Shown: one piece after another, positions 30,483-56,398 of the stretch
How positions within the stretch are numbered: the first letter of the stretch is position 1
Layout: each line of letters begins with the position of its first letter
Source: Paramacrobiotus metropolitanus
Lineage: Eukaryota > Tardigrada > Eutardigrada > Parachela > Macrobiotidae
Length of the DNA: 64,000 bases
Direction: 5' to 3'
Assembly: GCF_019649055.1 (NCBI RefSeq)
Contig: NW_026570249.1
Span: 744,001 to 808,000 of the forward strand
Notes under the pieces: model-generated
What the model saw: only the letters and a program-made list of their open reading frames with translations
The model's database searches: none
What the model was told of the DNA's origin: nothing
Program-made: the position numbers and the translations under genes

Positions 30483-31192
30483 CTAATTTTTACTCTTTCC
30501 AATCCCTTGCTTGCTGCATCTTCCATCATGCGCAGCTGTCACCTCTAAAAAGGATAACGTGCGAACCTGTTACGTAGATGCAATTTGCAATTAATTAACT
30601 AAAACTGCAATATTCATCCTTTGAATATACGATATTGGTTACCAGATAAAGTAAATGGCTGAACAACTATTAAGGAATCAGTTTTCCCAGTTTGCGTACT
30701 TTGGCATTTTGCTATGCAGTCGTTAGAGTATGTTTTTCCGTTGGATCCACAGACTGGTTTGTAAATTTTGGGACAAGGACACTTTCCGTCCGATTCTGGT
30801 GGCGTCTGCCCGCTGTCTTCTTTAGCGGATTGTGCTGATTTGCAAGCGCCTACAAAATATAGATGACTGGCTGGATCATAATCTGCGTAGCGCTGTGGGA
30901 TAAGATATACTGCTTCAGTTTTTGCAAGGAAATGATTATTTACACCGCAGGTACGTGTGTATTCCGTACATTGCAGTCTAGTAATAAAATTTTACAATAA
31001 ACCGGACCGTGCAACTTCGGTCCGGTTTATTGTTAACAGCTCTTCATAACAATCATCGTGCAAAGCTTTGAAATGCTAACAAAAATCGTCAATACAGATA
31101 AATACAGGCAAGTAACTTGTCTCGTACATAACAAACTTACCAAAACAGATTAATACTGCTAGCAGAATCATCCATAATGACGGTAATGACAT
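30483..31192 (-). CDS. Kazal-type serine protease inhibitor K1
   Basis: Small secreted inhibitor. Exons 31192-31141, 30849-30700 and 30544-30483 join in phase 1 to 87 residues. Exon 1 is a signal peptide ([14 protein letters not shown]). Exon 2 holds a Ser/Glu/Gln-rich spacer and then [20 protein letters not shown] with DCIAKC; exon 3 adds the sixth Cys ([10 protein letters not shown]) and a basic tail. The six-Cys pattern C-x-C-x7-C-x10-C-x3-C-x10-C fits a single Kazal domain with a one-residue C1-C2 gap. By the Kazal convention the residue two after C2, Lys, is P1, which predicts inhibition of trypsin-like proteases. K2-K4 share exon structure, phase and strand. Confidence 0.88.
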
Positions 31193-31525
31193 TTTAATAA
31201 GGAAATAGAAGTGTGATAGATAATATTTGCTTAAGTTTAAAATAAAGATTTTTGGTTCTTCCAGCAAAAGAAACGCGAAGAGTAGTCGGTCATGCTGACC
31301 ATGAATAACACAACCGGCTTTACTATCCATCGATATGATATTGCCTCGGGGAAAACTTGTTTTTTTTATGCGGCATGCGTGATTTTAAGCACATCAAAAC
31401 AACCGAAATCAAAAACAATAACAAGGAGTTATGTCATATGATATCCTTAAATTGACAGCGACACGTTCGGAAAGGGCATAATTTAGCTGAGCCAAGCAGC
31501 AAAAACGCTTGCTGCTAAAGCTATG
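31193..31525. other. Upstream region of Kazal gene K1
   Basis: About 330 bp between the K1 start codon and the left end of the mariner element. It presumably contains the K1 promoter; no specific element is recognised. Confidence 0.4.
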
Positions 31526-32236
31526 TACGAGGGCTACTCGGAAAGTAATGATAATCAGTATCAGTTAGTAATCATAAAATTATGCACTAATTTTTTAAAA
31601 ACTGTAGCATTCATAACTAGATCATAGGGCAATGGCCGTGGCCATACCGCCTAAGGTTGGCGGTTAGCAAGACTCTGAACATGGCTGGGTAGCGCTGATT
31701 TTTCACTGATCACTGAAAACGTTGCCTTAATTACTGGCCAGTTTTCATGATATTATTTTGAAAAATTGATTTGCAGAGAGAAGTGTAGAATTTTTTCATG
31801 CTGCATTGCCTGTTCTGTTGCCTTAATAAGGACCATTCTTTGCTGATGTTGCCAGCTGGTTCCAGCGAACTCGCACTGAGAACTCCGTTTTGACAACGGT
31901 GCTCAAATTTTGGAATGTTTTTTGCGTTTTCACTTTCGAAAGTCCTCATAGTCGAAACCCTGATCGGAAGTATTCATTTCCGACCCCGAAGCAATAGCAG
32001 AGGGTCTAAGCATTATGGAAGGAAAGGTGTCGAGGGTGTGCTGCAGCTTCTTACTGATAAAGCAGAAGAAAATGGTTTTGACACGGTATCATCCGTGTGG
32101 TGCAATATCGCGAAAATCCACAGATAAGCACCCGTCATTGCTTTATTTTTTTCTCGGCCTGGAGTAAAAGTATCGTTCCACATTATTTTTCTTAGGTTAC
32201 CACGAAAAATTTCATTTTTGAGGAGTATTAAAATTA

Positions 32237-32680
32237 GCTATAGTTATAGCCTTATGGCCAATGCATTGTTTCGTACTTTAAGCACATTTTACGATTTAAT
32301 ACAAACCACTTCACGTGGTATCGTACGAGGCTTATGTGCGCCAATGGCTTCCCGTTTCTGAAACGGGCTAGTAGATGACAGTTAATTATTTTAAGTTTAG
32401 AGATAATCTGTAGGTCCCCATTACCTTTTTCATGCTAGCGGTATGTGATAAAAATTGATAGCGAATGGAAATGGAAGTATTTACACAATTACAGCTGCTA
32501 ATCTAGCTTTACAAAATATTGTTAAGTACCACGTACAGGCCGTCAGAAACAAAAACGGTTAACGGGGAATATTGGACACACATAGGCCTCGTAATGATAG
32601 CGCATTCAAGTGGTTCGTATTAATTCGTTAATGTGCTTAAAGTAATGAAGCAATGCATTGGCCATAGGCTATAACATAGC
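32237..32680. mobile_element. Foldback element, family 2, nested in the mariner
   Basis: Arms at 32237-32340 and about 32570-32680 are inverted copies: GTTATAGCC..TATGGCCAATGCATTG outside, TGTGCTTAAAGTA and the CACTTCACGTGG/CAAGTGG region further in, ending near ACATAGGCCTCGTA. The centre of about 230 bp is unique and non-coding. No clear target duplication is visible. It interrupts the mariner and so is younger than it. Confidence 0.65.
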
Positions 32681-32856
32681 AAGTTTTGTAACTTCTAAAT
32701 TCTGTTTTGGCCACGCCCTGCCGACCATGGCAGATGAAATTATTTTTTTAAGCATACCCTAGTGTTACTCTGCAATCCTGCAAAAAATGAAGTTTTTCTG
32801 AGAGGGGGGCCTGTGACGCTAGCCTGGTTAGTCCTTTATCTGTTCGAAATATTTCC

Positions 32857-33045
32857 TGGCTTGAAAAAATTGTTGCGTGGCAAAAGTTTGAAAATGATGA
32901 AGAACTGGAAGAAAATATCAGTACACCGATCTCTAAGATACCTCCTAATTTCTTTTCGAAAACGTTTGATGAGTGGCTGTTTAGCTGTTTACGATGTATA
33001 GAGATTAAGGGACATTGTTTTGAGAAAATACGAGGAAAGCGCTGA
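32857..33045 (+). pseudogene. Mariner transposase, C-terminal remnant
   Basis: About 62 open codons ending 50 bp before the right TIR. WLEKIVAWQKFENDEELEEN followed by NFFSKTFDEWLFSCLRCIE and IKGHCFEKIRG matches the usual mariner transposase ending (length-variable LKGxRF, then W-x-x-CI-x-x-x-G-x-YFEK). The DDE catalytic region and DNA-binding part are not recognisable upstream, so no functional enzyme is encoded. Confidence 0.6.
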
Positions 33046-33097
33046 TGCAATAAAAAATCGTGCGATAGTTATCATTACTTTCTGAGTGACCCTCGTA

Positions 33098-33487: not shown

Positions 33488-35515
33488 GTATCTTTATCTT
33501 TATATTCATACAATCTTACCGACCAAAACGTATTTATGCGCCGTTTTTATAGACTCGTCAACGCGTGGTCAGTTTTAGTCCAGCTTGGTCTTAAAAAATT
33601 CCATATTTTCCATAGGTGTGCCAATAGATTTTTGTTTTTTTTAATTAACCAGTGGTCAGAAGATGGTTCCACCAGGTCTTAAGTATAGGAAACGTAAAGA
33701 GCACTCGAAGAAGTATTCACTACTGCAGTCTGCACAGCAACACAAAGTAAGTACTCGTACTTAACATGATGACTGTAACCACGGAGACTATAGCGGATAC
33801 ATATTAATACTTCCTTTTTAGTATAAATAATAATTGTTACGAGGTATGTGAGCAATAAATTAGTACCCAAACGTCCATAAAAGGTACATCGCCCAGTATG
33901 TCGCTTACACAGTATCTATACGTCACAACGTAAAAACATCAGAAGTCAGAACGTCAAAAAAACAGAACGTCAGGTAATCCGAACGTGAAAAATCAAAAAC
34001 GTCAGAAATTTAGAACGTAAGAATATCAGACGTTAGAACGTCAGAAGGTCAGAATGTCAGAACGTGGAAAATTAAAAAACGTCAGAACGTCAGAAATTCA
34101 AAATGTCAGAACGTTAGAACGTCAGAATGTCAGAACGTTAGAACGTCAGAATATCAGAACGTTAAAACGTCAGAAGGTCTGAAAGTCAGAACGTGAAAAA
34201 TGAAAACGTCAGAACGTCAGAAATTCAGAATGTCAGAATATCAGAACGTTACAACGTCCGAATATTAGAACGTTAGAACGTCAGAAGGTCAGAAAGTCAG
34301 AACGTGAAAAATTAAAAACGTCAGAGCGTCAGAAATTCAGAATGTCAGAACGTTAGAACGTCAGAATGTCAGAACGTTAGAACGTCAGAATATCAGAACG
34401 TTAGAACGTCAGAAAGTCAGAACGTGAAAAATTAAAAACGTCAGAACGTCAGAAATTCAGAATGTCAGAATATCAGAACGTTACAACGTCCGAATATTAG
34501 AACGTTAGAACGTCAGAAGGTCAAAAAGTCAGAACGTGAAAAATTAAAAACGTCCAAAATTCAGAACGTCAGAATATCAGAACGTTAGAACGTCAGAATA
34601 TCAGAACGTTAGACCTTCAGAAGGTCAGGAAGTCGAAACGTGAAAAATTAAAAACGTCAGAACGTCGGAAATTCAGAACGTCAGAACTTTAAAACGTTAG
34701 AAGGTCAGAACGTAAGAACGTCCGAAGGAAAAAAATTAAACCTTAGAACGTTATTACGTCTTATGAAATACGACTACGAAAGCGTATATACGATTTCAAT
34801 CTTAGTCTTAAATAAATCACATTTTCCATACCTTCCCAATTATCCAAAATTTTTACAATTTCCTGTGTGCTTATGTCTCATTTGAAAATATTCATAATTT
34901 CCAGTACTTAAGTGCCGAGCGCGAATGCGCGAGGCTACCTTGTATTTAGCGTATTTATGCGCCAAGCGTATTTATGCGCCGTTTTAATAGGCTCGTCAAC
35001 GCGTGGTCAGTTTAAGTCCAGCTTGGTCTTAAAAAATTCCATATTTTCCATAGGTGTGCCAATAGATTTTTGTTTGTTTTTATTACCCAGTGGTCAGAAG
35101 ATGGTTTCACCAGGTCTTAAGTATAGGAAACGTAAAGAGCACTCGAAGAAGTAAGTATTCACTGCACAGTTATGAAAAGCCCATAACACAATGACTGTAA
35201 CCACGGAGACTATAACGGATACATAAATACTTCTTTTTTAATGTAGATTGTAGATGAAAAATTATTATGTGAGCAGCAAATTACGTAAACCTCCATAAAA
35301 GGTAAAGTACATTGCCCAGTATGCCGCCTACACAGTATCTATACGTCAGAACGTAAAAACATCAGAAGTCAGGACGCCAAAAGACAGAACGTCAGGTAAT
35401 CCGAACGTGAAAAATTAATAACGTCTGAACGTGAAAAATCAAAAACGTCAGAAATTCAGAACGTCAGAAATTCAGAACGTCTGAATAGTATCAGAATGTC
35501 AGAATACTAGGAAAG
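33488..35515 (+). repeat. Higher-order satellite, left block
   Basis: Two units of a composite repeat. Each has a conserved core of about 400 bp (33488-33925 and 34901-35340) and an array of degenerate 8-mers, consensus CGTCAGAA (33926-34750 and 35341-35515). Core landmarks are CTTAAGTGCCGAGCGCG at the start (missing in the first core), TATTTATGCGCCGTTTT, CCAGCTTGGTCTTAAAAAAT, ATAGGTGTGCCAATAGATTT, CACCAGGTCTTAAGTATAGG and TGACTGTAACCACGGAGACT. Arrays mix CGTCAGAA, CGTTAGAA, TATCAGAA and GTGAAAAATTAAAAA variants. No core encodes a conserved protein. Confidence 0.85.
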
Positions 35516-36134
35516 TGCCCTTGCTTTTTGCGGGCACTGCAAGACCGAAGCGTAGCAGGACTACGTATGTACAGAGTGATTGGCACCCCTTTTTCTGTCG
35601 GCAATCCTCCTCGATTATTTAATGCTCTCGTCCCGGTTGGTACAATTTTTAGTACAGTGACAAGTGAAATCTCGGCCTCTGCCCCCGGTACGCATTTACG
35701 TAAAATTTTGCAGATAAGTGAATGTTTCGAATACATGTTTTGAAATTACAAAAAATTTTAATTTCTTCAGCTCTTGTGGAATAATTTATGCCGGTTCATG
35801 CAGAGCTGTGGGAGGTCACTGCCACAATATGAACATATGCAAAATAGTCAGTGGTAGAATTATCTGCTGAATACGGTGTAAAGTGTTGGATTTGGTACTG
35901 GACAGTGTCTGGAACACCCCGTTAGGATACTGATGTCTCAAAATGTTTAGCAGACACCGGTATGTTGTTACTGTCACTATCGAATAATGATTTCATTATT
36001 GACAGCTCAATCCATCGCTTGTGAATGGCAAATACGCCCTCATGGACGCTTTTGTAGCGCTCTTTTGCCATTTTTCCCTAAAGGGAAAAGCAATAAGTAA
36101 TCTTTTGATCATATCGGGGAGATGTCCACCGACC

Positions 36135-36425
36135 AATGCATACGGTTAACGTGTATATGTGCGCATCCAGGCTGCAAACATCACCATGCATATTTGCCTT
36201 TCGCGGTGGTTGCCGACGCACAGACACCATGAATTACGCGTGGCTTGAGTATATACGGCCAGCGTGCATATGTGCATCAGGTAAACAAATACCACCGCGC
36301 ATATGTGCATTTGGTGGCGGTGATCGACGCACAGACACCGTGAATTACGTTTGGCTTGAGTATATACGGCAGGCGTGCATATGTGCATCAGGTAAACTAG
36401 GAAAATGCACCGAACTGTGCATTGG
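36135..36425 (+). repeat. 111-bp tandem duplication (about 2.6 units)
   Basis: Two GACGCACAGACACC landmarks at 36215 and 36326 give the period. Units share GTGAATTACG..GGCTTGAGTATATACGGC and GCGTGCATATGTGCATCAGG. A further part-unit (CCACCGCGCATATGTGCATT to GACGCACAGACACC) occurs at about 37667-37715, 1.3 kb away. Even spacing of ORF-like frames over it is a by-product of the period (111 = 3 x 37). Confidence 0.7.
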
Positions 36426-36887
36426 TTGACCGGAGCGCAGCTCTTATTAAGGTTGAAGACTGAAAGTGTCTGTAACGGCTAATTTGTAAAAGTTTGTTTT
36501 TCAATGGGCAGAGCAGAAAATAACATGGCAGATGCAGTGTGGTAGCATGTCCGAATATCACCATTAGGGCCACGGGTTGCCAGTGCCACTCCGGGTTGTT
36601 GGCATGGGGTGTACGGCAGCAAAACATTTTTCCGAGACGGGGAATGGGAGGATTTTGCCGGTCACATACATACAAAGGGCATGCCGCGAGGCGAATGCTT
36701 GCAGCGAAGCGCGGAGGCCATTTTATGGTTGTTCACTTTTTCACCCGGCTGCATTTTGGGAAAAAAATTGCAGAATTTCGACTGTATGCAAAAATCAGGT
36801 ACTGGTGTCACCAACGTCTTGGCAAGCTGGCGGCAGTCTTTGGTGGTTTAAGAAAACAGTGGGGATGAGACGTGTGGTTGCAGTAGC

Positions 36888-37271
36888 CAGTGACTAAACG
36901 AAATTCCATCGACCTCGGACTTTTCTTAAAGCAAATCTGACCTCGGGATAATTTTCAGCGAATTTTTCTGATATAGAAAACCATTTTTTAAACTGTTTTT
37001 TAAAGGAAAAATTTCTGACTGCCGGGGTCCTATAAGCCACCGACTTGTCAAAAGTGTTTGAAATGCAAAAATAAGAGTTTTGTTAGTGGCGCCATTGCAG
37101 CCACCCAAGGTTATTGAGGTGCGTATGGGGCCCCGACAGTCGAAATTTTTTCTTTCAGAAACAATTTTGAAAAATGGTTTCTATATCAGAAAAATGCGCT
37201 GAAAATGATCCCGAGGTCAGATTTGCTCTAAGAAAAGTCCAGAGGTCGATGGGAGTCTCGTTTAGTCATTG
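36888..37271. mobile_element. hAT-like MITE with 8-bp target duplication
   Basis: A 384-bp foldback: the first and last about 100 bp are inverted copies (ATTCCATCGACCTCGG, AATCTGACCTCGG, TTTTCAGCG, TTCTGATATAGAAACCA). Tips read CAGTGACTAAACGA and, inverted, CAATGACTAAACGA. GCAGTAGC is present immediately on both sides (36880-36887 and 37272-37279). An 8-bp duplication and CA..TG tips are the signature of hAT superfamily insertion. No coding capacity. Confidence 0.8.
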
Positions 37272-37765
37272 GCAGTAGCTGAAATATGCTGTGATGAATT
37301 GCCAGTAGCCACTCGATCATCACAGCAGACATGTCCGCTTTTAGGTTTAAAAAAGCTTTAATTTGAGGTATTTGGGATGCCGATGCATGTCGTCGTATTC
37401 ATGACCTATGGCGTAGTTACAATGCTTTTCAATACAGCAGTGTACCTATATAAACAGCGCACATCCACTCATAAAATTTAATCATAATCCCGTATTCGCC
37501 AGGGACGTTTGGAGCAGAACTATGACGTCATTTTTTACTTCCGCTTATGACGTCATCGTTTACTTCCGTAACAAACAGACAGACAGACACTTTTTCATTT
37601 CGCCTGAATTAGATGACCTTCGCTGCGCTCCGGTCGATGACCTTCGCTGCGCTCCGGTCGACAAATACCACCGCGCATATGTGCATTTGGTGGCGGTGAC
37701 CGACGCACAGACACCACATTTTTCATTTTCCTTGAACACAGAAGACCTTCGCTACGCTTCGGTCG

Positions 37766-40700
37766 ATCAGAACGTTAGAACGTCAGAACATTAGAACGTC
37801 AGAAGGTCAGAACGTAAAAAACTAAAAACGTCAGAACGTCAGAAGTTCAGAACGCCAGAATATCAGACCGTCAGAACGTTAGAACGTCAGAACAGCAGAA
37901 CGTCAGAATGTGAAAAATAAAACGTCAAAAGGTCAGAACCTCAGAACGTGAAAAATTAAAAACGTCAAAATGTCAGAAATTCAGAACGTCAGAATAACAA
38001 AACGTTAGAACGTCAGAACATCAGGATGTCAGATTGTGAAAAGTGAAAAAACGTCAGAAAGTAAGAACGTCAGAAGTTAAGAACGTCAGAAGGTCAGAAC
38101 GTTAGAAAATCCGAACGTGAAACATCAGAACGTCAGAACATCAGAGCGTTAAAAATTAAAACCTTAGAACGTTAATACGCCTTATAAAACACTACTACGA
38201 AAGCGTAGATCTGATTTCAATCTTAGTCTATTTTCTTTATATACTTCTATTAATAATGACCTTTCCAAAACAAAGCCAATGCTACCCAGTACTTAAGTGC
38301 CGAGCGCGGATGCGCGAGGCTACCTTGTCTTTATATTCATACAAGCTTACCGACCAAAGCGTATTTATGCGCCGTTTTTAACTCCTCGATAACTCGTGGT
38401 CAGTTTAAGTCTAGCTTGGTCTTAAAAAATTCCATATTTTCCATAGGTGTGCCAATAGATTTTTGTTTGTTTTTAATAACCAGTGGTCAAAAGATGGTTT
38501 CATCAGGTCTTAAGCACAGGAAACGTAAAGAGCAGTAGAAGAAGTATTCACTGCACAGCAATAACAAGTGCTTTAAAACATAATGACTGTAACCACGGAG
38601 ACTATAGCGGATGCATAAATACTCTTTAGGTAGAATTATATATTTTTACTGTACGTCATGCAAAAGTCCATACGTATTTCAGAGCGTCAAAACGTCAGAA
38701 ATTCAATACGTATGAACGTCAGAACGTAACACCGTCAGAACGTCACAAAGTAAAAACATCGGAACGTTAGAACGCCAGAACGTCATAAAGTAAGAACATC
38801 AGAACGTTAGAACGTCAGAACGTCATAACTTTAGAACGTCATATAATCAGAACGTTATAACGTTAGACGTCAGAACGTCAGAACGTTAGAACGTCAGAAC
38901 GTTAGAACGTTACAACGTCAGAACGCCAGAACGTTAGAACGTCAGAACGTTATTAGAACGTCAGAACGCCAGAACGCCAGAACGTCATAACGTCAGAACG
39001 TCATAACGTCAGAAGGGCAAAACGTCATAAAGTAAGAACGTTAGAACGTCAGAACATCAGAACTTCAGAACGTGAAAAATTAAAATTGTCAGAACGTCAG
39101 AAATTCCAAACGTCAGCCTTTATATATTTATAATGGCCTTTCCAAAACATGCCAATACTATCCAATACTTAAGTGCCGAGCGCGGATGCGCGAGGCTACC
39201 TTGTCTTTTCTTTATATTCATACAAGCTTACCGACCAAAGCGTATTTATGCGCCGTTTTAATAGGCTCGTCAACGCGTGGTCAGTTTAAGTCCAGCTTGG
39301 TCTTAAAAAATTCCATATTTTCCATAGGTGTGCCAATAGATTTTTGTTTTTTTTTATTAACCAATGGTCAGAAGATGGTTTCACCAGGTCTTAAGTATAG
39401 GAACGTAAAGAGTACTCGAAGAAGTATTCACTGCACAGCAATAAAAAGTACTTACGACTAACATAATGACTGTAACCACGGAGATTATAGCAGATGCACA
39501 AAAATACTTGCTCTTTAGGTAAAATATGTATATTACGTCATGTAAAAGTTCATATGTATTTCAGAGCGTCGAAACGTCAGAAATTCAAAACGTTAGAACG
39601 TTAAAACTTTAGAACGTCAAACGTTAGAACGTCAGAACATCATAACGTCAGAACGTTAGAACGTCAAACGTTAGGACGTTAGAACGTCAGAACGTCAGAC
39701 CGTCAGACCGTCAGACCGTCAGACCGTCAGACCGTCAGACCGTCAGACCGTCAAGTCAGACCGTCAGACCGTCAGACCGTCAGACCGTCAGACCGTCAGA
39801 CCGTCAGAACGTCAGAACGTCAGAACGTCAGAACGTCAGAACGTCAGAACGTCAGAACGTCAGAACGTCAGAACGTTAGGACGTTAGAACATCATAACGT
39901 TAGTACGTCAGAACATCAGAACGTTAGAACGTCAGAACGCAAGAACATCAGAAAGTCAGAACGTCAGAACGTCAGAGCGTCAGACCGTCAGACCGTCAGA
40001 ACGTCAGAACGTCAGAACGTTAGGACGTTAGAACATCATAACGTTAGTACGTCAGAACATCAGAACGTTATAGAACGTCAGAACGCCAGAACATCAGAAA
40101 GTCAGAAAGTCAGAACGTCAGAACGTCAGAACCTCAGAGCGTCAGAACGTGAAAAAGTAAAATTGTCAGAACGTGAGAAAGTCCGAACGTCAGCCTTTAT
40201 ATTTGTAATGACCTTTGCAAAACAAAGCCACTACTATCCAGTACTTAAGTGCCGAGCGCGGATGCGCGAGGCTACCTTGTATTCATACACGCTTACCGAC
40301 CAAAGCGTATTTATGCGCCGTTTTTAACTCCTCGATAACTCGTGGTCAGTTTAAGTCCAGCTTGGTCTTAAAAAATTCCATATTTTTCATAGGTGTGCCA
40401 ATAGATTTTTGTTTGTTTTTAATAACCAGTGGTCAGAAGATGGTTTCCCCAGGTCTTAAGTATAGCAAACGTAAAGAGCACTCAAAAAAGTATTCACTGC
40501 ACAGCAATAAAAAGTGCTTTAAAACATAATGTCTGTAACCACGGAGACTATAGCGGATGCATAAATACTTGCTCTTTAGGTAAAATTATATATTATTACG
40601 TCATGCAAACGTCCATACGTGTTTCGTACTTTAGAGCGTCAAAACGTCAGAAATTCAATACGTATGAACGTAAGAACGTAACACCGTCAGAACGTTAGAA

Positions 40701-41021
40701 CGTCAGAACGTGAGAATGTTAGAACGTCAGAACGTGATAAAGTAAGAACATCGGAACGTAAGAACGTCATGAAGTACGAACAGCAGAACGTTAGAACGTA
40801 AGAACGTCAGAACGTCAGAACGTCATACAGTAAGAACATCAGAACGTCATAAAGTAATAACATCAGAACGTTAGAATGTCAGAACATCAGAACTTCTGAA
40901 CGTGAAAAATTGTCAGAACGTCAGAAATTCCGAACGTCAGCCTTTGTATATTTATTTAAAACAAAGCCAATACTATCCAGTACTTAAGTGCCGAGCGCGG
41001 ATGCGCGAGGCTACCTTGTAA
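37766..41021 (+). repeat. Higher-order satellite, right block
   Basis: Continues the composite repeat. 8-mer arrays lie at 37766-38165, 38686-39115, 39566-40195 and 40636-40945, with cores at 38286-38690, 39163-39565 and 40235-40640 and the head of another core truncated at 40979-41021. Core starts are about 0.74-1.07 kb apart, so the repeated unit is core plus array. Arrays differ in length and variant content, while cores differ by scattered substitutions and indels. Confidence 0.87.
39680..39875 (+). repeat. Homogenised 8-mer tract: (CCGTCAGA)n then (ACGTCAGA)n
   Basis: The most regular part of the satellite: about a dozen near-perfect CCGTCAGA units, one interrupted by a CAAGT insertion, followed directly by about ten perfect ACGTCAGA units. 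A sharp switch of variant with almost no mixed units suggests recent slippage or unequal exchange. A shorter copy of the pair recurs at about 39955-40020. Confidence 0.8.
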
Positions 41022-45200: not shown

Positions 45201-46376
45201 GAGTGTTCATTAAAATCAAATCGAGCATTATTTTGTAGCCGTGCATTTTGCCCGGAGAGAGTGTGTATATCGGATACACATTTTTCCCGTACACCGACTC
45301 TGTGGTTCAAGATGTGCGAGCCACTACAGTACCAAGATTCGGAAGCGCATAGGCTACATTCTATCGCTTTTTAACCATTATGATTCTGCAGCACTTATTT
45401 GTTTATATAAAGCATTAGTCTTTCCCCTTTTCGATTATTGCAGTCCCGTTGTTAAACCCTTTTTTAAAACTCATAGAAATGATCTGGATAAATGTGCCCT
45501 GAAATTCCTGAAAAGATTGCGAATGGGTAGTGCACTTACAGATTACTGTGGCCGGCTTCGCGAGATAAACTGGGACGGTGTTGAATTGCGTCGCATTAAA
45601 ACCTCTTTGTGTGTTGCATATAAACTCGTATTCGGCACGATACCTTTCGGTAACAACTTTTTCATTAGTTATGAGTCAGTTACTGCCGCTAACACTGTTG
45701 CAGGTAACACTCGGAATGCGGATCGGATGTCGCGCCACCCATTCCCGATTCAAGCCGCCAGGACCAATTTTTGTGGAGCGGAAGTGCCAGCCAGCGAAGA
45801 CTCCTTCGCATGGAGAATCGCTAAAATCTGGAATCGTCGTATCGCTCACTGCAAGCGTTCCAAACAGCTCTGGAAGACGTCTCATGGAAGGAGATCGCAT
45901 CTGCTAAAGACCACCTGCCATCGAATAACCTTGACCTTTGATAAAATCGATGAATTGTTTCATTTCTTTCTTTTAAGAGTTTTAAATTGTTGTTCTTCTT
46001 ATTTTATTATGTTGACCTGTCTATAGATCTCGATAAGGAGTGATTCCTTGTATCTGTAGACATTAAGCAATTAAAACCTAACCTAAACCAAAGCGTGAAA
46101 CATTCGGATACCATCCCCATGGTACTGGTCGGGAATAAACGCGACTTATTGGCAAGGAATGTGAAATCTCAGCACGCCAGCGATTTAGCTCGCAGTTACG
46201 GGATCCCTTTTATTGAAACTTCGGCTAAAACGAGAGCGGGCGTTGCTGAGGCCTTCTACACGCTCGTGAAGGAGATACGGAACGCGCCTAAGCGGGATAT
46301 CAAGCGTAAAAAGGGTAAGGAGGCATCCAAGCCACAGAAGCGTGATGGAGGCACTGCGTGCTGCTCGATTGTCTGA
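42213..46376 (+). CDS. Ras-family small GTPase, diverged paralogue
   Basis: Membrane-anchored GTP switch. Exons 42213-42523 and 46094-46376 join (phase 2) to 197 residues. Canonical parts: [10 protein letters not shown] start, GK-T P-loop, DPTI effector loop, [11 protein letters not shown] with Gln61, [22 protein letters not shown], then a Lys/Arg-rich tail and the prenylation box CSIV preceded by a second Cys for palmitoylation. Unusual: Gly13 is Glu (GAGEVGKT), Ser17 is Thr, Glu37 in the effector loop is Gly, Tyr64 is Cys, and switch II is two residues longer than in Ras. These should alter nucleotide cycling and effector choice. The 3.57-kb intron is filled with transposon sequence. The close match to Ras elsewhere and the clean splice junction argue for a functional gene rather than a pseudogene. 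Confidence 0.87.
42524..42693 (-). mobile_element. Inverted LINE fragment at the Ras splice donor
   Basis: From the exon/intron border, GTAATTAGTAATCACCGTTT and about 75 further bases are the reverse complement of LINE bases at about 44285-44362 (the segment encoding [20 protein letters not shown]). The match resumes after a small hairpin (AGATTGTGTTCGC). The Ras donor GTAATT is itself within the matching stretch, so part of the donor may be LINE-derived. Confidence 0.65.
42601..42680. repeat. Small hairpin insertion inside the inverted LINE fragment
   Basis: GTACTGCATATGACGCAAGC..ATTACTTTAATGC is followed by its near-perfect inverse, ending GCGTCAGATGCAGTAC. It splits the LINE match (..GACGGAAAT / AGATTGTGTTC..), so it is an insertion of about 75-80 bp. 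Confidence 0.6.
42894..43376 (+). pseudogene. PIF/Harbinger transposase, N-terminal fragment
   Basis: About 160 residues matching the start of Harbinger-type (HARBI1-like) nucleases: [20 protein letters not shown], a conserved middle ([20 protein letters not shown]) and the [19 protein letters not shown] helix-turn-helix. The frame then runs antisense into the neighbouring Myb-like gene (from about 43380), and the DDE catalytic part is absent. It is therefore a deletion derivative with no active transposase. It lies within the Ras intron, sense to the Ras gene. Confidence 0.7.
43349..43858 (-). CDS. Harbinger Myb/SANT-like accessory protein
   Basis: Second protein of PIF/Harbinger elements, which binds element DNA and helps the transposase into the nucleus. 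Exons 43858-43679 and 43585-43349 join in phase 0 (NETK then [15 protein letters not shown]) to 138 residues without stops. The Myb-like helices are [34 protein letters not shown] and [20 protein letters not shown], followed by an acidic tail. It lies tail to tail with, and slightly overlapping, the truncated transposase, the usual convergent order in such elements. Whether it is still expressed cannot be told. Confidence 0.7.
44232..46060 (+). mobile_element. Non-LTR retrotransposon (LINE), 5'-truncated, with reverse transcriptase
   Basis: Open frame 44232-45089 is a reverse transcriptase: [29 protein letters not shown], motif A with Asp ([10 protein letters not shown]), motif B ([14 protein letters not shown]) and motif C FADD, so the catalytic Asp residues survive. 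After a hairpin insertion (45142-45332) the thumb/connection region continues ([40 protein letters not shown]) to a stop at 46026. No endonuclease domain was found upstream. RT motifs fit the Jockey/CR1/I group; I cannot place the clade. It sits in sense orientation in the Ras intron, ending about 30-60 bp before exon 2. Confidence 0.8.
45142..45332. mobile_element. Foldback element, family 1, copy 2, inside the LINE
   Basis: TACTGTATCGGCTCGCACAT.. at the left and ..ATGTGCGAGCCACTACAGTA at the right are inverted. The right arm read inward (ACTGTAGTGGCTCGC, then AACCACAGAGT and GTGTACGGGAAAA) matches the arm of the copy at 1458-1632. It interrupts the reverse transcriptase frame, so it inserted after the LINE. 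Confidence 0.65.
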
Positions 46377-47034
46377 ATTTTATTTGAGCTGTGAAGTGTG
46401 AACTGGCCTGGGTTTCCTTGGATTTTCATGTTTTTATCATTTACTGCACGGGCCTGAATTGCTCTTTGTATATTGTAAATCTTTTACTATGCGTAAGCAA
46501 TTTTCTGATAAATAGGAATATGTCAGACACGGGTCGTACCAAAAGAAAGCAAGATCATCTTGTGCTGGAAAATACGGAAGTTTTTTTAATTACAAAGTGT
46601 AAAACTCGTATCATTGTATTTGTCGAATATGAAACACGCGTAATGCAGTCGAAAATACAGTAAGTACACAGACATTACAGATACTTTCATGGCATTAATG
46701 TACGCATGCTAAAGCAAAATATGAGTACAGAAATTATAATATTTGTAGTAGTACAGTACAACAAAACGATGAAATCAAACATCCCCGGCATTCTTAGAGT
46801 TGCTACTGCGGGTAAATTTAGACCGTTTTTCCTCCCGATTTTCCGTCACATGATCCCGTATGAGCAACTGGTTGTTCTGAAAATAAAAACCACGGCTCAA
46901 CGATCCAAAACGGCTGGCTTGCCTAGTATACTACGCGTTATTAAAGTAAGCATTATGCACTGTAATTCGTAAAAAGGGAGAGGCATAATGCTGTAGCCTG
47001 TACGTACAACCTAAACAGTAAAGCGCGCTAAACG
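46377..47034. other. 3' flank of Ras and Kazal K2, no gene seen
   Basis: Convergent intergenic DNA. The plus-strand frames (46391-46663 and 46706-46972) show no family features. Confidence 0.45.
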
Positions 47035-47459
47035 TTAAGGTTGTTTTGTGCAGTCTCGAACTTCTTGATCTGCGATTTACTTAGCAATATAAGCATAATA
47101 CTGATGCAGGATTACTCAAAACTTCATAATTACTTTCACATTTGGCTTTGCATGCGTTCGAGTAGGTTTTCCCGTTTTTTCCACAGACTGGAGAGAAGTC
47201 AGCTGTGCAAATACATCCACCGCCGCCTTCTGCACTCTTTGCTGCCTCCAGAGTTCCTAAAATGTGAACGAAATTCCTTATTCCCGTGGCATGCTAATAC
47301 AATTTAATGTCTGGTTTTTAATTTTCTTTGGATATCATCTTTAGCGCTACATTTTATGCATGTTGATTACGCATCTATTAAGTAAAAGAAATCAGATTGT
47401 TTTCCCAACTTACCAAAGCACAGGATCGACAAGACAACCGCCAAAACGACGAACTTCAT
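47035..47459 (-). CDS. Kazal-type serine protease inhibitor K2
   Basis: Exons 47459-47414, 47256-47134 and 47069-47035, both introns phase 1, give 67 residues. Signal peptide FVVLAVVLSILCFG, a short Ala/Gly-rich spacer, then CICTADFSPVCGKNGKTYSN and ACKAKC. Exons 1 and 2 are certain by comparison with K1, K3 and K4. Exon 3 (NQEVRDCTKQP) supplies the sixth Cys but makes the C5-C6 loop about three residues shorter than in the other copies. If the last intron were retained, translation would end SVLCLYC instead, at 47081. Predicted P1 is Ala, which points to an elastase-like rather than trypsin-like target. Confidence 0.78.
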
Positions 47460-49455
47460 GATGCCGGTACAAAGTACTCTGGAAAATTGCAGTCAAATAC
47501 CACAATTATCGAAACGCGAAGAAGATAAAACGGTTTATGCACTTCTACGGTTTTTCGTAAGTTTCCACATAGGTGCTGTGCTGCGTATGGCACGAAAAAA
47601 ATCTGGTGTTTATATGAACTTCATTAGCAAAGTGTTATTATCAGATCATGATCTGGTCCTATTACCGTAATTACACATAGCACTTAACAGGCTTCTGAGA
47701 ATGCGGGTTTTTTCCATGTGTAAGTGTACTATGTATATAGATATACCGGATTTTCGTGATCAAAACAGTTATCTTTAACAAAAACATAATGATATTTGTC
47801 CGCTTGTGCTATCATTGTGAAACAAGAAATAAAAAACAGTTTGGCAGCCACAGAATCGATGGAAAAGCAACAGAACAGTGGAAATTTATATTAATTGACT
47901 TCAGAACTCTAACATCGACAAATACTGTGAAGAGATAAAAAGTCTAGGATTTTTATCAACTACAACGAAAACTCCCATCTTTTCCCATATTTTAACTAGT
48001 CTACTGGTAACCTTTGGATAGAGTAAAAGACGAAAATCTTGTCGCGCCATCAAATCTGCGTGCATGAAACCGGAACATATATACGAATTGTTCTTAAATT
48101 ATACGTACAGTATAATATGCAGATGCTGCAGTAGTCTAGTACGTAGATGCGCCAAAATGGAGAGTGTACAATACGCCTATCCATGTACATTTGTATGTTA
48201 AGTGTACCTTTATTGTTTTTTATTCGGGCAATAGCCAATTAACAGAACAACAACAAGGTAGATACTAATTAAAAATTTCGAATTTTTAAAAATTTTTATT
48301 GTTTAAAGCAATATCGTTTCTATTCCAGCTAACTGAGGTGTTGACCGCTGCGCTGTCTGGTTTTTTGGCAGTGGAAAACTGATTTCCAGGTGGTCGTACA
48401 TGAACTTCCAAACTGCAAGCAGTCTAGGTATACCGGTACGTTGTCGAAATTCGAAGTATAGCTGCTGTGTGTATCTAAAACTGTTTGTATTCTGTGAAGT
48501 AGCAACAGTAAAATTTGGAGGAACTGAAAGCTATGTACCTGCTAGCTGGTTTTCCAGTATTCGAAGTAAAACTCAGTCAAACGTTAAAGCAAATTGTTTT
48601 CGTATACTTGTCACTTGCAGCTCGAGCCGCGGTTGCAGCTTGCCACCCAATCGCCCTAAATGCACTGCATAGTGCACTGCATAGGGTGGAGTGTGGATTG
48701 CTCACCGGGGTCCAAGGCGTTATCCACCGGTGTATATATGATGCTCAAATGCGTTACTGACCGATTCCGCCGGAATGCTTGGAGCCGGGCACTGCAGCAT
48801 TTTTTGCGGGTCATTAAAACCCGCGCCCGGAATATCACTGAGAAGCGCCTGTTGTGCCAGATGTCCTATGTATGTTTCAATACGAACTGCAAATACACTG
48901 CTCGGGATGATCTGGCGGAAGTTTAGTTAAAACTGAGCGTTGCAGTCCCAAATCAATCTATAAATCTTAAAATTTAAATTTAGATGGCTGTTAAGCAATA
49001 ATGAATTGAATTTTATCTCAGTCACTTTGTCAAATATACAAACTTCGCATTGCATGTTACGTCATTATGGCAGCGTTCTTCACATTAACAGAAACGAATC
49101 GAACGTTTGTTTGACATGGATCGATGTACATGGTTTCTCCAAATTCCCATGATACTCGGGCATGTCAAGCAGATATAAGCGTACATTATACGCCGGAATA
49201 TCAGTGATATCTAGAGTAGTTTTGGTGTTAGGATTTAATCTTTTAACGCTAGAGTTTTAATTAAAGGTCAAGTAGAAGCCAATATGTGCGTACAGGCGGC
49301 ACAACCCGTTGTTCGTTGTCACAAAATTGTTGCGCAAACAGTATTATTTAGGCAAATTTCTTGTTCTGCATGTACATTATGAAATCGCGTTATAATTGTT
49401 GCGATCAAGGATTTGTCACTGCAAACTCTACAGCATCGAGCTAAAATTAATCGCC
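47460..49455. other. Intergenic, no recognised gene
   Basis: Upstream of K2 (-) and of GR-like gene C (+). Overlapping open frames at 48400-48926 match no family I know. A short internal repeat (TGCACTGCATAG twice) lies near 48660-48690. Confidence 0.4.
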
Positions 49456-52400
49456 ATGTCTGCAAATGGCTCTACTTACAATGCCGTGTCCAAAATTTTC
49501 GCTTTCCAGGAACTTTTCCTAAAACTGTTTGGCTTTCTGTGGAACAGCAGCACAAAAACTGGAAGGGCTCTTCATTTTGTCCTCGTTGGAGTTTTTCTGC
49601 TAGGTGGATCGTTCAGTGCATTACTGACTAGCTCATCCAGCGCATATGCTTTGACGTTACCGAATTCCAAAAATATTCTTCTACGTGTGCTACCGCATGT
49701 TCCTTATATCTTTATTGCCGTACGTCCTCTGGCTGTATTGTTTATTTGCCATAAATACTCCAGTTTCTGGATTACTTCGAAACAGTCCATAGCCGACATT
49801 CTGACAAATGTTTCCAATCAAAGTAAATTAACAATCAAATTACACCGATTACGATTTGCATCGATTTTACTCGGAATTTGTTCGTTTGTACTGGTTGGAG
49901 CATTTGAAACCGGCGACTGGCTGCACTACTTTGATCAAGATCCGCGGCGCCGTAATTTCCAGTACGATCTGCCGTTGGATCCGCTTCCAGTGCGTTTTCC
50001 AATATGGCAGTACGTAATTCTTTGGACAGTGTGGACAACACTGCTTTTTGCTTTATCACAGCAGATGTACATCGGTTTAATTTTGCATACTACGCTTATT
50101 CAGTATTCGCTTCAAGACATTCGAGACAGTCTGGAGAAGGAAAGCACTCACCTCCATTTTTTATCAAAAACCGGAAAGGCCAAAAGCAGTGATCTTTGTG
50201 AACATGTCTATGAGAATTTAAAGACATTGAAAACGAGATATTTTCAAATTGTAAGGTTCTGTCATAGCATTAACGGAGCCTACGGGACCGTCGTTTTTAT
50301 CATATATGGAATGGATCTATTTACGGTGTGTGGATTTGTAACTGGGATGGTTTCCAATGACGAAACGTATTTTTCGGCCTATGTGACAAACTGTTTCGGT
50401 ATCGTGGTGTTCAGTTTGTATATTTTATTTTTGATACCAATGATTGGCACATACGAAATGGTAAATATGACAGACGCACAGAGTACAGTCTTGAAATTGT
50501 AAATATTTGTTTAAATTTTTTACGGGGAAATCAGTCATATGGATAACAAAATTATGCGCTATAGAAAAATATCATGGATTTTCTGCGCCACGTGGCCCGT
50601 CCGGAGTTAGAGCACGATAAAGAACAGCGAACGATGTAAATTCATGAGTTACGCCAAACAACATACTACGCCACGACACGCCACACTCTTTAAACACGCA
50701 ATATGCTTTTGGTTGGCTGGTGGCTTGGTGCACGCCATATATTTTAAAGAGTATCCTAATTCAGATCTATTTAGCTACGAATGGGATACACCAGAGCCGG
50801 CAAACCAGAAAATACAGACCAAAACCAATATTATATTCTGAAAGCCCGTAGTCGAAAACCCGGCCAGATACTGTAGTATTCATTTCTTTCAAAACCTCTC
50901 CCGCTTGGAACGCCAAAGCGGAAGAGTTTTGACTACCTTCACCAAATGCGGCACCCGATAGGTGAGCTGGTGACCGAGCTACCGGTATTGCCCAGTCTAG
51001 GGGACCCGTTAGGTGAGCGAGTGACCGAGCTACCGATACTGTTAAGTGCACAGATCCCGTCAAGTGAAGGAGTGACGGAACTGCCGGCACTGTCCAGTTC
51101 ACGGAGACCGTTAGGTTAACGGGGGACTAAGCAGGCACTTCTGACCATTGCACAGATTCGTCACTTGAACCAGTGACTGAGCTTCCACTACCCAGATTGA
51201 TCAGGTTAAGGTTCACAGAATCATGAATTCAGTTGTGAGAATTTATGGTGATTTGAGAGAATCATGAACTGATTAAAAAAAATCATACTCGTATAAAATC
51301 AAATCCGTGTTTTCATATAAAATCCGTTTTTTGCGCTAATGCGATGTACCGATTATGCTTCGACCGAAATATGTTATTTCAATAAATATTCATTGAGAAC
51401 TAAATAAAAGTGGCCGTTGACCACAAGAAACGCGGAGGCGAAGCCGAGAATGTTTCTTGTAATCGTAATTATAGAGCAGTGCTCTAACTCCGGACGGGCT
51501 TCGCGTAGTTTCTTTCGGGTAGCAGCTGAAATGGCTAAATAAGCTACGCGATCATTGATTGTTGATTCTCAAACATTTATAAATTACGATAGCATTTAAT
51601 TCTGCTTACGTAAAATAATAGCTCGAAGTATTTGCATCCTTAAATTAATTACAGGGATTGGAGATTAATCTACAGCTGCACACAATGGTGGAGAGCGGCG
51701 ATGCTCTGCCGGAAGTGCAACTTCTAAACCGATTCAAGGTAGAACTTATAGAGATACTATAAATCGCTTTTCACAATAATAAGAACAGTTATCATAATGA
51801 AATACAAAATAAATTCTTAATATGTATAGGAACGAGCAGCGCTGACAAAAATACAACCAGGTGAAGAGTCTGTTTCAGTTCGCGTGGGAAGGACCTATAA
51901 ATAAAAAAATAAAATAAATAAATTGACTATACCTGTCGTTAGTGAAGTAGTGCAATTCCCATCATGAGAGGGCGAATAAATAATTATTATCGCTGTATGC
52001 GGAGGTGCATTTAAAAAAGCGGTTTCAGCCGTTGAGTTGGTAGGGTAATTTTGATTCTGTTTTGTTGTACGCTTTTACGGTAGTGCTCATGCACCTGCAG
52101 GCTACAGCTTGTTCCAGGGTGCTATGTATTAGTTAATGAATGATTTAAATTGGTGATCTAGCAGTGCTTTCAATCACCCTGAAGGGCGGAAAAACATATA
52201 CAGTTTTCCTTTTTCACAGAAAGTTTTACAAGCACTGCTCTCGCGATTTCTCAACCTCGTTCGAGATCATCCAGTTATTTTCTCGGGAGCCGACATGTTC
52301 CACGTGACCCGGAATTTTCTGGCCGGTGTACGTGAAAGGAAAATTGTTCATGAACTGTGTTTACAGTTTGCCTAACGCAGTTTTGTTTCCAGACATTCAC

Positions 52401-52530
52401 CTTTGTGCTATCGTGCGCAATTGTACTCAAAGAGTTTATCCAGCGAACTGATGAAATACTTGTAAGAGAGTATTCCTGTAACACTACCGGGATGAAGTTG
52501 GACGTTAACGTATCCAGGGAATTTGGTTGA
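49456..52530 (+). CDS. Gustatory-receptor-like seven-helix protein C
   Basis: Closest relative of gene B. Exons 49456-50460 (335 codons), 51655-51738 (84 nt), 52220-52327 (108 nt) and 52393-52530 give 444 residues. All introns are phase 0, and exon lengths 1-3 are identical to gene B. Marker blocks: NSKNILLRVLPHVPYIFI, QDPRRRNFQYDLPLDPLPVR, YGMDLFTVCGFVTGM, INLQLHTMVESG, PVIFSGADMFHVTRNFLAG, TFTFVLSCAIVLKEFIQR. The first intron is enlarged to 1.2 kb by insertion of a 0.9-kb element with terminal repeats (50597-51497). The coding frame and splice sites are intact around it. Read-through of exon 1 into the intron would add only about 14 residues, so a truncated six-helix form is conceivable if splicing fails. 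Confidence 0.83.
50597..51497 (-). mobile_element. Non-autonomous element with 21-bp TIRs and 51-bp minisatellite, copy 2 (complete)
   Basis: The left end GCCCGTCCGGAGTTAGAGCA(C) and the right end are perfect 21-bp inverted repeats. Inside, in reverse orientation, are the same flanking modules as the copy at 1650-3115 and about four units of the 51-bp repeat (50950-51130). About 900 bp, without transposase. I could not find a clear target duplication, so the superfamily is undetermined. The 1650-3115 copy lacks these ends. Confidence 0.75.
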
Positions 52531-53629: not shown

Positions 53630-53861
53630 CTAGCATTTTCCTTGTTTGGCAACAGTTACTTCTATAACCGAAACACATCAAGGTTTATAAAAGACTTCTT
53701 TTTTTGCTACAAATTAAAGAATTAATATGTACAATTTGTATCACAATCATCTTTACTTTTGCAGTTGGCTTCGCAACTGTTTGGATATGTTTTCCCGTCC
53801 TTCCCGCAGACGGAATTCATATTCTGCGTGCAAAAGCATAGTACGGTAGTACCGGTTCGTT
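53630..53861 (-). CDS. Duplicated Kazal cassette K3b (second exon pair, no own signal exon)
   Basis: A copy of Kazal exons 2 and 3 just downstream of K3: 53861-53757 (ERTGTTVLCFCTQNMNSVCG then [15 protein letters not shown]) and 53661-53630 (KVTVAKQGKC stop). Phases (1 in, 1 out) match K3's, so the K3 signal exon could splice to either pair. It cannot continue in frame from K3's own exon 3. The acceptor proposed at 53862 (CCTAAG) is weak. It may be an alternatively spliced cassette, the stranded remains of a gene duplication, or one half of a gene whose signal exon was lost. Confidence 0.55.
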
Positions 53862-54273
53862 CTTAGGCTTATCCTCACATTTTCCTTGTCTGGCGACAAC
53901 GACTTCTGTAGCCAACCACGTTCCGGGTTATAAAAGACCGCCGATTATTTTTTGCAGCCAATCAGAAATATGTAGCGTGTTCTCTTACTTTTGCATTTTG
54001 CTTCGCAGCTATTCGGATATGTCTTGCCGTCTTTCCCGCAGACGGGATTCATAATCTGCGTGCATAAACATACTGGTTCTGTATTTCCTTTTTGCGGTGC
54101 TGCCGAAGCTCCTAGAAGGTGAATATAATATACGGTACATATATATAATAAACTGCATCTCTGAAAACCGGATTACCACAATCAACATAAAAAAGTATAA
54201 GGTTCAATTTTGTTTTCGAAGCTTTACCGTAATAGAGGACACTGAGAAGAACTGCTAACAAGACAGCCTTCAT
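53817..54273 (-). CDS. Kazal-type serine protease inhibitor K3
   Basis: Exons 54273-54228, 54111-53989 and 53905-53817, both introns phase 1, give 85 residues. Signal peptide AVLLAVLLSVLYYG, spacer SAAPQKGNTEP, then [26 protein letters not shown] and KVVVARQGKC for the sixth Cys. The tail EDKPKNEPVLPYYAFARRI runs into the first part of the duplicated cassette K3b in another frame, so the last dozen residues are probably accidental. P1 by position is Gln. Exon 3 resembles K4's (VA.QG.CEDKPK), so K3 and K4 are the closest pair. Confidence 0.85.
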
Positions 54274-56002
54274 GATGTTTTGTTGGGCGAATAATCGGAA
54301 TTAAACTTACTAGAAAAATTTGTGTCGCTAGATGTATGTACCTCTAGTCTCTACCACAAAAATATTGCAACATCTTATTTTAATAGTGTAATTGCCATTT
54401 ACATTGCTTATTCCCGGAGGGTTTGAGGTGTGTTGATTGCCAGCTTTAATTTACTCGCTGTACGAACATTTTTTATCTACAACATCCATCGGTAGCCAAT
54501 AAAAAGCACTGGCAGTAGCAACGATTTTCGAACTTGTGTTTTGTATTTTTTGCGACCATTCAGGTTTCCGTGCAATTAATTAACAATTTGAATTAGCGTA
54601 TAAACATCAGACTGATAAAAGGTGACAGTTTCCAGTACAGTATGTGTTAATCATAGAAGGCCGTCCGCCTTAATTCCAGGAAATACATGAACAGTCGATA
54701 CGAACAGTTACAGCCGCCGCAATCAGGTAAAACAGGATTATACAGTGGCGACCCCGCCGGCTCTGTGACCGTACTCTGTACTTTTCACCAGAAAATTAAT
54801 TATGGTTTTATTAAGTTTTCCCGAACATTAAGCATCCCTATACGATGCTTACCAGTTAGCAAACTTGCTGGTAGGCTTTTGCGAATTAATTTGAAGTGGA
54901 AAAGTCTCACCGTTTCCATTCCGTTTGTGGCACTCGGTAGGGGGCGAAAATTTTGGGTTATTGCAAGTAACGAAGGACTAATTATGGGGCAGATCGAAAA
55001 GATTTGAAAGCCGGGCTCACAATCAGTAGCTTTTTTATGATTTTAAAAATCTGACAATTTTTGCGCTTGATGTCGGTTGGATAAAATCTGTGGTTACAGT
55101 CAGCACCAGTTCTCTTTTTTAGTTCAGTAAAAGATTATCTGGACGCTTGCCGGCGAAGTTTTGAGAGGTTAACGCGTTCACTGCAATGCATATTCAAGTT
55201 TGAATCTGCCTCGGTGCTGGATTAATTAAGTAATTAAATACCGTACTGACAGTTTCTTATAAAAAAATTTGGCGTAATTAAGCATAATTCAGCATATTAA
55301 AAATCTGACATAATTTGGCAATTTTTGGCATAACTAAGACCTGTAAACAGCAGGCAGCGAGAATATTTTGGGGTAGGTAATTATTAGTAATGTATGGAAT
55401 CATTTTCCATATAATATTAGGAATTGTATAATGTCATCGCAGTCAGTCACTTATGATCCTCTTCGTACTTACTCTCTTCGTGGGATTCTGTTCGTTCTCG
55501 TATTTCTGTAAAAGAATCCGTTCGCTTTTTAATGACTACTTCGACGTTACCCTTGCAAGCGTAGGTATGGCGACGGTGTGGCTGATTCAACTGGCAGATT
55601 TATCGTTTTTCCAAATGTCATGTATTTTTAAGAGCCTTCTTTATAACCAGTAGCTCTAATATGACAACAGTAAACTGCAGAAGAAAATAAATTACGCCCA
55701 AATTACGTATAAGGTGGGGAAATTGTGTACTTGTAACTTCAAATTTTCTTTTATTAAATCGCACTGGTTACAAGTTGACGTCGATAAGAATACACAAATA
55801 CCCACGTGTCAATACTGGTCTATGACCTATGTCATGTCGTTAAATATTTCTAGATTGTACAATATTTTAATCCGGTAACAACAATTTCCATCCGCAAACA
55901 AATATGGCGACATATATATTACATATAGAAAAACTAATATTATGGGAAAATACCCAGTGCTGATTCCGCATCGACAACTAAAGTGGCTGAGAAATCACGC
56001 AT
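54274..56002. other. Intergenic between Kazal K3 and K4, no recognised gene
   Basis: Upstream of K3. Open frames at 54687-55007 (+, basic, 106 codons) and 55453-55653 (+, hydrophobic, about 66 codons) have no recognisable motif, paralogue or splice partner, so I do not call them genes. Confidence 0.4.
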
Positions 56003-56398
56003 TCAGTTTTGTGACTTGGGCTTATCCTCGCATGCTCCTTGGCTGGCGACAAGTATATCTAAAATCGAGCACAAAAGGTTTAGGAAGGTACAAATAATCA
56101 ATTAACGATGCAAATCTGACATTTTAGATGTGCGTGTATAGCAACTTACTTTTGCAACGGGCCTCACAACTGTTCGGGTATGTTTTCCCATCTTTGCCGC
56201 ACACTGGGGTCCTGACCTGTGTGCATATACATCCTGGTGCCCTGTTGTTTCCTCTTCCCGAGACTCCTGAAAGCACAGATGCACCATTAATGAGACAGAA
56301 ATACGAACATAGTTTGGAGTCAAGATATCATGGAATGTGTAGAATGTACCGTAGCATAGGACGCACAAAAGAATTGTCAACAAGACCACAACCTTCAT
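56003..56398 (-). CDS. Kazal-type serine protease inhibitor K4
   Basis: Exons 56398-56350, 56266-56150 and 56058-56003, both introns phase 1, give 73 residues. Signal peptide [15 protein letters not shown], spacer [11 protein letters not shown], then [26 protein letters not shown] and [18 protein letters not shown] with a natural stop. All six Kazal Cys are present with the C1-x-C2 spacing of the other copies; P1 by position is Gln. Confidence 0.88.

Follow-up and report, generated by a model that had tools for sequence, protein, structure and literature searches.

In this work we describe a cluster of Kazal protease inhibitor genes of the tardigrade Paramacrobiotus metropolitanus, located in a window of 64,000 nucleotides (nt) of contig NW_026570249.1, the whole stretch of DNA analysed here, whose positions serve as coordinates throughout. 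The cluster very probably represents a tandem family of small inhibitors, each secreted and with one domain, that belong to the non-classical group II; it would have expanded by local duplication, and it includes one further unit that appears to be decaying. Its four genes, K1 to K4, all occupy the minus strand and are bounded by position 30483, where the stop codon of K1 ends, and 56398, the start codon of K4. The original prediction had named four Kazal genes alternating with gustatory receptor (GR)-like genes; all four are present, while a fifth Kazal unit, K3b, which lies inside K3, had been overlooked. The exons of the models rebuilt from the sequence are given below, C1 to C6 being the six Kazal cysteines and P1 a position of the reactive-site loop.

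K1 exon 1, 31141..31192, minus strand: signal-like peptide, ending in phase 1 within a Gly codon
K1 exon 2, 30700..30849, minus strand: linker and Kazal C1-C5, P1 Lys
K1 exon 3, 30483..30544, minus strand: C6, C-terminus and stop; the Kazal_1 match reaches the last profile position, 49 of 49
K2 exon 1, 47414..47459, minus strand: signal-like peptide
K2 exon 2, 47134..47256, minus strand: Kazal C1-C5, P1 Ala
K2 exon 3, 46818..46876, minus strand: C6 and stop
K3 exon 1, 54228..54273, minus strand: signal-like peptide
K3 exon 2, 53989..54111, minus strand: Kazal C1-C5, P1 Gln
K3 exon 3 (3a), 53817..53905, minus strand: C6 and a tail running out of frame into K3b, with its stop there
K4 exon 1, 56350..56398, minus strand: signal-like peptide
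K4 exon 2, 56150..56266, minus strand: Kazal C1-C5, P1 Gln
K4 exon 3, 56003..56058, minus strand: C6 and stop

Each model consists of a signal-like exon, an exon carrying C1-C5 and a short exon carrying C6. Models could be built for all four genes at the predicted coordinates, strand and exon number, and all eight introns are of the GT-AG type and, as had been claimed, in phase 1; the spliced models likewise bear out the P1 residues Lys, Ala, Gln and Gln for K1 to K4. With the stop codon they measure 264 (K1), 228 (K2), 258 (K3) and 222 nt (K4), which gives proteins of 73-87 residues, and the products of the first exons, judged by eye, are short, hydrophobic and N-terminal. The longest exon has 150 nt, in agreement with the earlier remark that none is long enough to stand out, and for this reason automatic annotation can overlook these genes.

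As the original prediction had suggested, the proteins were scanned with the profiles PF00050 (Kazal_1) and PF07648 (Kazal_2) at their curated Pfam cut-offs, and all four scored above both. For Kazal_1 (cut-off 21) K1, K2, K3 and K4 reached 39.1, 31.9, 33.5 and 27.0 bits, and for Kazal_2 (cut-off 22.8) 34.3, 34.2, 31.3 and 31.7 bits, respectively; a hypothetical joined model of K3b also exceeds the cut-off for both families (Kazal_2 30.3 bits). A six-frame scan with a five-cysteine core pattern found five cores, at 30704-30781, 47138-47215, 53993-54070, 53761-53838 and 56154-56231, every one of them on the minus strand, vs none in 100 dinucleotide-preserving shuffles of the window. This count is not independent, since the pattern was derived from K1-K4 and K3b themselves, and the independent test is therefore the Pfam scan; origin of the cores as chance patterns was rejected on the Pfam scores and the shuffles.

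Choosing the third exon by its C6 could mislead, so all AG acceptors downstream of exon 2 were counted. Among those located 40-1000 nt past exon 2, a cysteine is correctly placed in phase 1 by 2 of 48 for K1, 1 of 52 for K2, 3 of 56 for K3 and 1 of 49 for K4, and in each gene the modelled acceptor is the nearest of the correctly placed ones. One of the three sites compatible with C6 in K3 is the acceptor of K3b; a third C6-like reading, at 53520, was unsupported by local alignment of exons against intergenic DNA and was set aside. We also took as chance a 22-column match at 48050-48070, which was reached in 0 of 300 shuffles, 25 exon/intergenic pairs (5 x 5) having been tested. No further Kazal relics were found in the window by tblastn with the five proteins (expectation value, E, up to 10): nothing outside the five loci fell below 0.1, the lowest E there being 0.15 at 32755-32814. 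An Rfam scan of the window gave no match at gathering scores.

All five cores share the spacing C-x-C-x7-C-x10-C-x3-C-x10-C, with six cysteines in Kazal order, and thus both C1-x-C2, the start also seen in leech tryptase inhibitor, and C4-x3-C5, which at the sequence level is the group II motif. PMC3082530 defines the non-classical group II of Kazal inhibitors by a helix with the motif Cys-x3-Cys, held by two disulfide cross-links, and names LDTI-C, rhodniin and dipetalogastin among its examples. Searches of PDB sequences, run with K1, K2 and K4, returned as best match leech-derived tryptase inhibitor (LDTI) for both K1 (1an1, E 1.6e-11) and K4 (E 6.7e-10), and ovomucoid for K2, followed by silk protease inhibitor 2 and rhodniin. 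Cysteine spacing, together with what K1 and K4 matched best in the PDB, places the predicted K1-K4 proteins with the non-classical group II inhibitors.

The aligned cysteine spacing of LDTI (PDB 1an1, 1ldt, 2kmo) is identical to that of the K genes, and K1 has the stretches CPKI and KPVCGS in common with it; it differs in that K1 bears an extra N-terminal linker, that K2-K4 carry Ala or Gln at P1, and in the tails after C6. The insect Kazal proteins rhodniin, infestin, dipetalin and Aedes AAEL006007 are all among the PDB matches of K1, and domain 1 of rhodniin starts with C-x-C as in the K genes, but rhodniin has two Kazal domains per chain whereas K1, K2 and K4 are single-domain. Human SPINK1 resembles them in gene structure, as described in PMC10898081: its first exon ends in phase 1 within a Gly codon (c.55/c.56, Gly19) and its last exon starts late in the protein (c.195). 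However, SPINK1 has four exons and its last intron is in phase 2 (c.194/c.195; PMC10898081), vs phase 1 in the K genes, and pancreatic secretory trypsin inhibitor is given as the type of the classical Kazal group (PMC3082530).

These likenesses bear on the earlier argument that the common C1-x-C2 spacing and the intron phases show descent from one gene. C1-x-C2 is found in group II relatives such as LDTI and so is not special to this cluster; being a subgroup trait, and the first intron being like that of SPINK1, neither by itself demonstrates local descent. The conclusion nevertheless holds on other grounds, as the C1-C6 cores of K1-K4 are 46-73% identical (K1/K2 59%, K3/K4 73%). A common local origin of the four predicted genes is supported by their similarity, adjacency and shared strand.

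Variability among the four proteins concentrates in the reactive-site loop, taken as the six positions P4, P2, P1, P1', P2' and P3'. At least three residue types occur at 5 of these 6 positions and at 8 of the 25 other non-Cys positions (Fisher P = 0.034); against the C3-C5 scaffold (2 of 15) the difference is sharper (P = 0.006), though this narrower comparison was picked after the data were seen, and with K3b added the loop stands at 5 of 6 against 9 of 25 (P = 0.05). The C5-C6 tail of the cores is variable as well. In PMC3082530 the Kazal reactive-site loop is described as tending to high variability, with P1 dictating specificity. The loop variability of K1-K4 is the usual pattern of canonical inhibitors, and a bias among four genes is no proof of positive selection; diversification against different proteases, which the P1 residues had been taken to reflect, is plausible.

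The unit missed before, K3b, is a tandem copy of exons 2 and 3 located behind K3 exon 3, and consists of two parts.

K3b exon 2 copy, 53757..53861, minus strand: C1-C5 with Gln at P1; joined directly, with no intron, to exon 3a, whose frame is a different one
K3b exon 3 copy, 53630..53661, minus strand: C6 followed by a stop; AG acceptor

The C1-C6 cores of K3 and K3b are 84% identical in DNA and 84% in protein, and in the self-comparison of the window the similarity extends across the intron between the exons (212 columns at 72%). Exon 3a carries its frame on into K3b and meets its stop there, at 53817; the cysteines of K3b belong to a different frame. The 18 differences between the two cores comprise 11 synonymous and 7 nonsynonymous ones; 5000 neutral simulations, run without selection, gave a mean of 4.2 synonymous changes, and none reached 11. 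With K4 as outgroup and the changes sorted by hand, 7 synonymous and 0 nonsynonymous changes fall on the K3 branch and 4 and 5, respectively, on that of K3b, with 2 of the 18 sites unassignable (Fisher P = 0.029). Moreover, the Pro that K1-K4 have in common two residues before C3 has been lost from K3b. Polarised with K4, the constraint thus falls on the K3 side, and K3b is apparently relaxed. To us K3b looks like a duplicated domain that is out of frame by now and probably decaying.

This unit might instead still be in use, K3 and K3b forming one gene with alternative 3' exons and making two or three inhibitors. Exon 2 would then join either 3a, giving the long tail, or 3b, ending at C6, and exon 1 might join 2b. 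In K3b none of the six cysteines is missing, and it still has both a GT donor and an AG acceptor; exon 3b fits exon 2 in phase, has its C6 correctly placed and could replace exon 3a. One AG, ending at 53862, would put exon 2b in frame behind exon 1. The stops of K1, K2, K4 and K3b are each followed within 400 nt by AATAAA or ATTAAA (two such signals for K3b), and neither is present within 400 nt after the stop of K3, which is consistent with a K3 transcript running through K3b. Yet the acceptor of exon 2b is weak and purine-rich (GATAAGCCTAAG), vs the pyrimidine-rich acceptors of most other modelled exons, and 5 of the 9 changes assigned to the K3b branch are nonsynonymous, besides the lost Pro before C3. 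We consider such alternative splicing unlikely. It is also rather improbable that K3 is a single gene encoding two Kazal inhibitors through the duplicated exon 2-3 pair, fused without an intron, and caught between gaining and losing a second domain. A decaying duplicate that has lost its frame remains the reading we prefer.

If expressed as modelled, each K protein would be made with a signal peptide, later cleaved off, and the mature domain would fold round three disulfides, the Kazal pattern being 1-5, 2-4, 3-6. By the standard canonical mechanism, the loop after C2 would serve as a substrate-like bait that locks a serine protease. K1, with Lys at P1, would suit trypsin-like enzymes, as this residue generally does. 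K2 would suit elastase-like enzymes, P1 Ala having been taken as a sign of such targets (PMC5691223), and for K3 and K4, with Gln, there is no obvious target. The family would have expanded by local duplication, K3 and K4 being nearer to each other than to K1 or K2, and a later internal copying of exons 2-3 within K3 would have produced K3b, now out of frame and probably decaying.

Several points weigh against this account. The splicing of K1-K4 is deduced from the sequence, and exon 3 of K1 and K2 is placed by the position of C6, splice sites and the Kazal profile rather than by strong pairwise similarity. Polarising K3 and K3b by K4 is noisy. Synonymous divergence (dS) was not computable for 5 of the 10 core pairs and exceeded 1.2 in 4 more, so that relative ages and selection are poorly measurable. 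Finally, inhibition by K3 and K4 is a guess, since no Kazal inhibitor with Gln at P1 was met in the passages covered, where no search was aimed at this residue. The same lack of an obvious protease partner would fit the idea that some of the four, K3 or K4 being the likeliest, are secreted and have the Kazal fold but have ceased to inhibit proteases. The K3 core has, on the other hand, been kept since K3b split off, with its 7 synonymous and no nonsynonymous assigned changes, which shows constraint and not inhibition as such; a loss of inhibitory function we hold to be improbable. A family of secreted group II inhibitors is still, in our judgement, by far the best account of the cluster.

Along the window the order is GR-B (plus), K1 (minus), satellite, Ras (plus), K2 (minus), GR-C (plus), K3/K3b (minus), K4 (minus), GR-D (plus) and GR-E (minus). 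The alternation of Kazal and GR-like genes described before thus stands only in part: the GR neighbours are real, but no GR gene lies between K3 and K4, and it is the satellite and the Ras gene that part K1 from K2. The GR-like genes are listed below under letters of our own, which may differ from those used previously.

GR-B, 27571..29656, plus strand: four exons, three phase-0 introns, 433 codons with stop; 7tm_7 31.1 bits
GR-C, 49456..52530, plus strand: four exons, three phase-0 introns, 445 codons with stop; 7tm_7 34.7 bits
GR-D, 57948..59553, plus strand: four exons, three phase-0 introns, 449 codons with stop; paralogue of B and C
GR-E, 60151..61449, minus strand: a long stop-to-stop open reading frame (ORF) only; possible further exon within 59963-60325
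GR-A, 6218-7510, minus strand: a GR-like ORF well away from the cluster, aligning to GR-B at 19% identity; 7tm_7 27.4 bits

The 7tm_7 cut-off (PF08395, 26.6 bits) is passed by three of the five, namely the full models of B and C and the long ORF of A. GR-D matched no Pfam family above its cut-off, giving only Trehalose_recp at 14.5 bits (cut-off 21), and the long ORF of GR-E had no Pfam match at E up to 1. B and C have the same lengths of exons 1-3 (1005, 84 and 108 nt) and are 54% identical, and D is 41% identical to B and 43% to C. An AlphaFold2 model of the stop-to-stop ORF of GR-B exon 1 alone (predicted local distance difference test, pLDDT, 70.0; predicted template modelling score, pTM, 0.69) was compared with the PDB by Foldseek, and its top 15 matches were all insect olfactory or gustatory receptors (best E 3.2e-4), with template modelling scores by query length of 0.50-0.64 except for rank 14 (0.33). 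The GR-like neighbours are therefore real, and the first exon of GR-B is predicted to fold like these insect receptors. Insect-type GRs carry the C-terminal signature TYhhhhhQF; in its strict form it is absent here, B and C having TFTFVLSCAI and D having TLTFVLSCAI near the end, and a pattern scan of the downstream reads was negative for B and D and yielded no plausible exon in the case of C. Among the matches listed from the self-comparison, 1639-3096 and 50752-51461 are about 89-93% similar in opposite orientation and share a 51-base tandem repeat, the second copy falling between modelled exons 1 and 2 of GR-C.

The interspersed order could be the trace of a repeated block in which Kazal and GR genes spread together, each GR with its partner inhibitor. 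K2/GR-C and K4/GR-D are indeed both divergent pairs about 1.5-2 kb apart, but GR-B and K1 are convergent, and the closest Kazal pair, K3/K4, has no GR gene between. The whole-window self-comparison (E 1e-3) gave 320 matches, of which 41 did not involve the satellite on either side, and those of them that start beyond 26 kb, 11 in number, were listed; among the matches listed, gene-to-gene DNA matches are confined to modelled exons or a few bases beyond. Between the intergenic regions of K2/GR-C and K4/GR-D, the best of four local matches has 82 columns at 68% (E 0.009), lies on opposite strands and is unconvincing. Duplication of a shared block was rejected for want of convincing similarity outside exons among the matches listed, and we regard it as quite unlikely. 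The GR genes would rather form a local family of their own, which came to lie among the Kazal genes by chance or through old segmental duplications that both shared. No Kazal genes beside gustatory receptor genes were found in the literature at the level of titles and starts of abstracts, and we do not claim that the arrangement is unreported.

Other features of the window were noted in passing. The satellite region, 33920-40940, holds arrays of an 8-base unit (TCAGAACG-like) in up to 101 copies, inside a region of longer mutual repeats. The Ras gene (42186-42527 and 46044-46376, plus strand) is split by an intron holding a reverse transcriptase ORF (RVT_1, 44172-45089), and in its protein the P-loop is GAGEVGKT and the effector loop DPTIGDEY, at both of which ordinary Ras differs. 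A perfect 83-base inverted repeat in this gene (42520-42602 and 44297-44379) flanks about 1.7 kb, and because an ORF (42834-43652) sits between its arms, the repeat may represent the two ends of a DNA transposon of recent origin. At 10438-11151 (plus strand) an ORF matches the Spaetzle domain (PF16077, 30.9 bits, cut-off 27) and has a Gly/Ala-rich tail after it. By the usual distribution of the two families, the 7tm_7 and Spaetzle matches would point to an arthropod or a close relative. At 15700-20220 (minus strand) there are two tandem copies of an unknown gene, with pieces matching among the matches listed; their ORFs share a CCRLGYGA motif, and the two ORFs scanned had no Pfam match at E up to 0.01.

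K1-K4 add members to a known family, and clustering of Kazal genes has already been described in the wasp Pteromalus puparum, where clusters of 4, 5 and 5 genes lie on three scaffolds (PMC5691223), with no association with GR genes mentioned in the passages covered. Kazal inhibitors are mentioned in two tardigrade papers as well. Nothing in the cluster alters existing knowledge of Kazal inhibitors. In K3 and K3b the internal duplication of a domain, by now out of frame, can be seen in small and clean form, and correct models of K1-K4 provide four putative inhibitors that the owner of the genome could assay.

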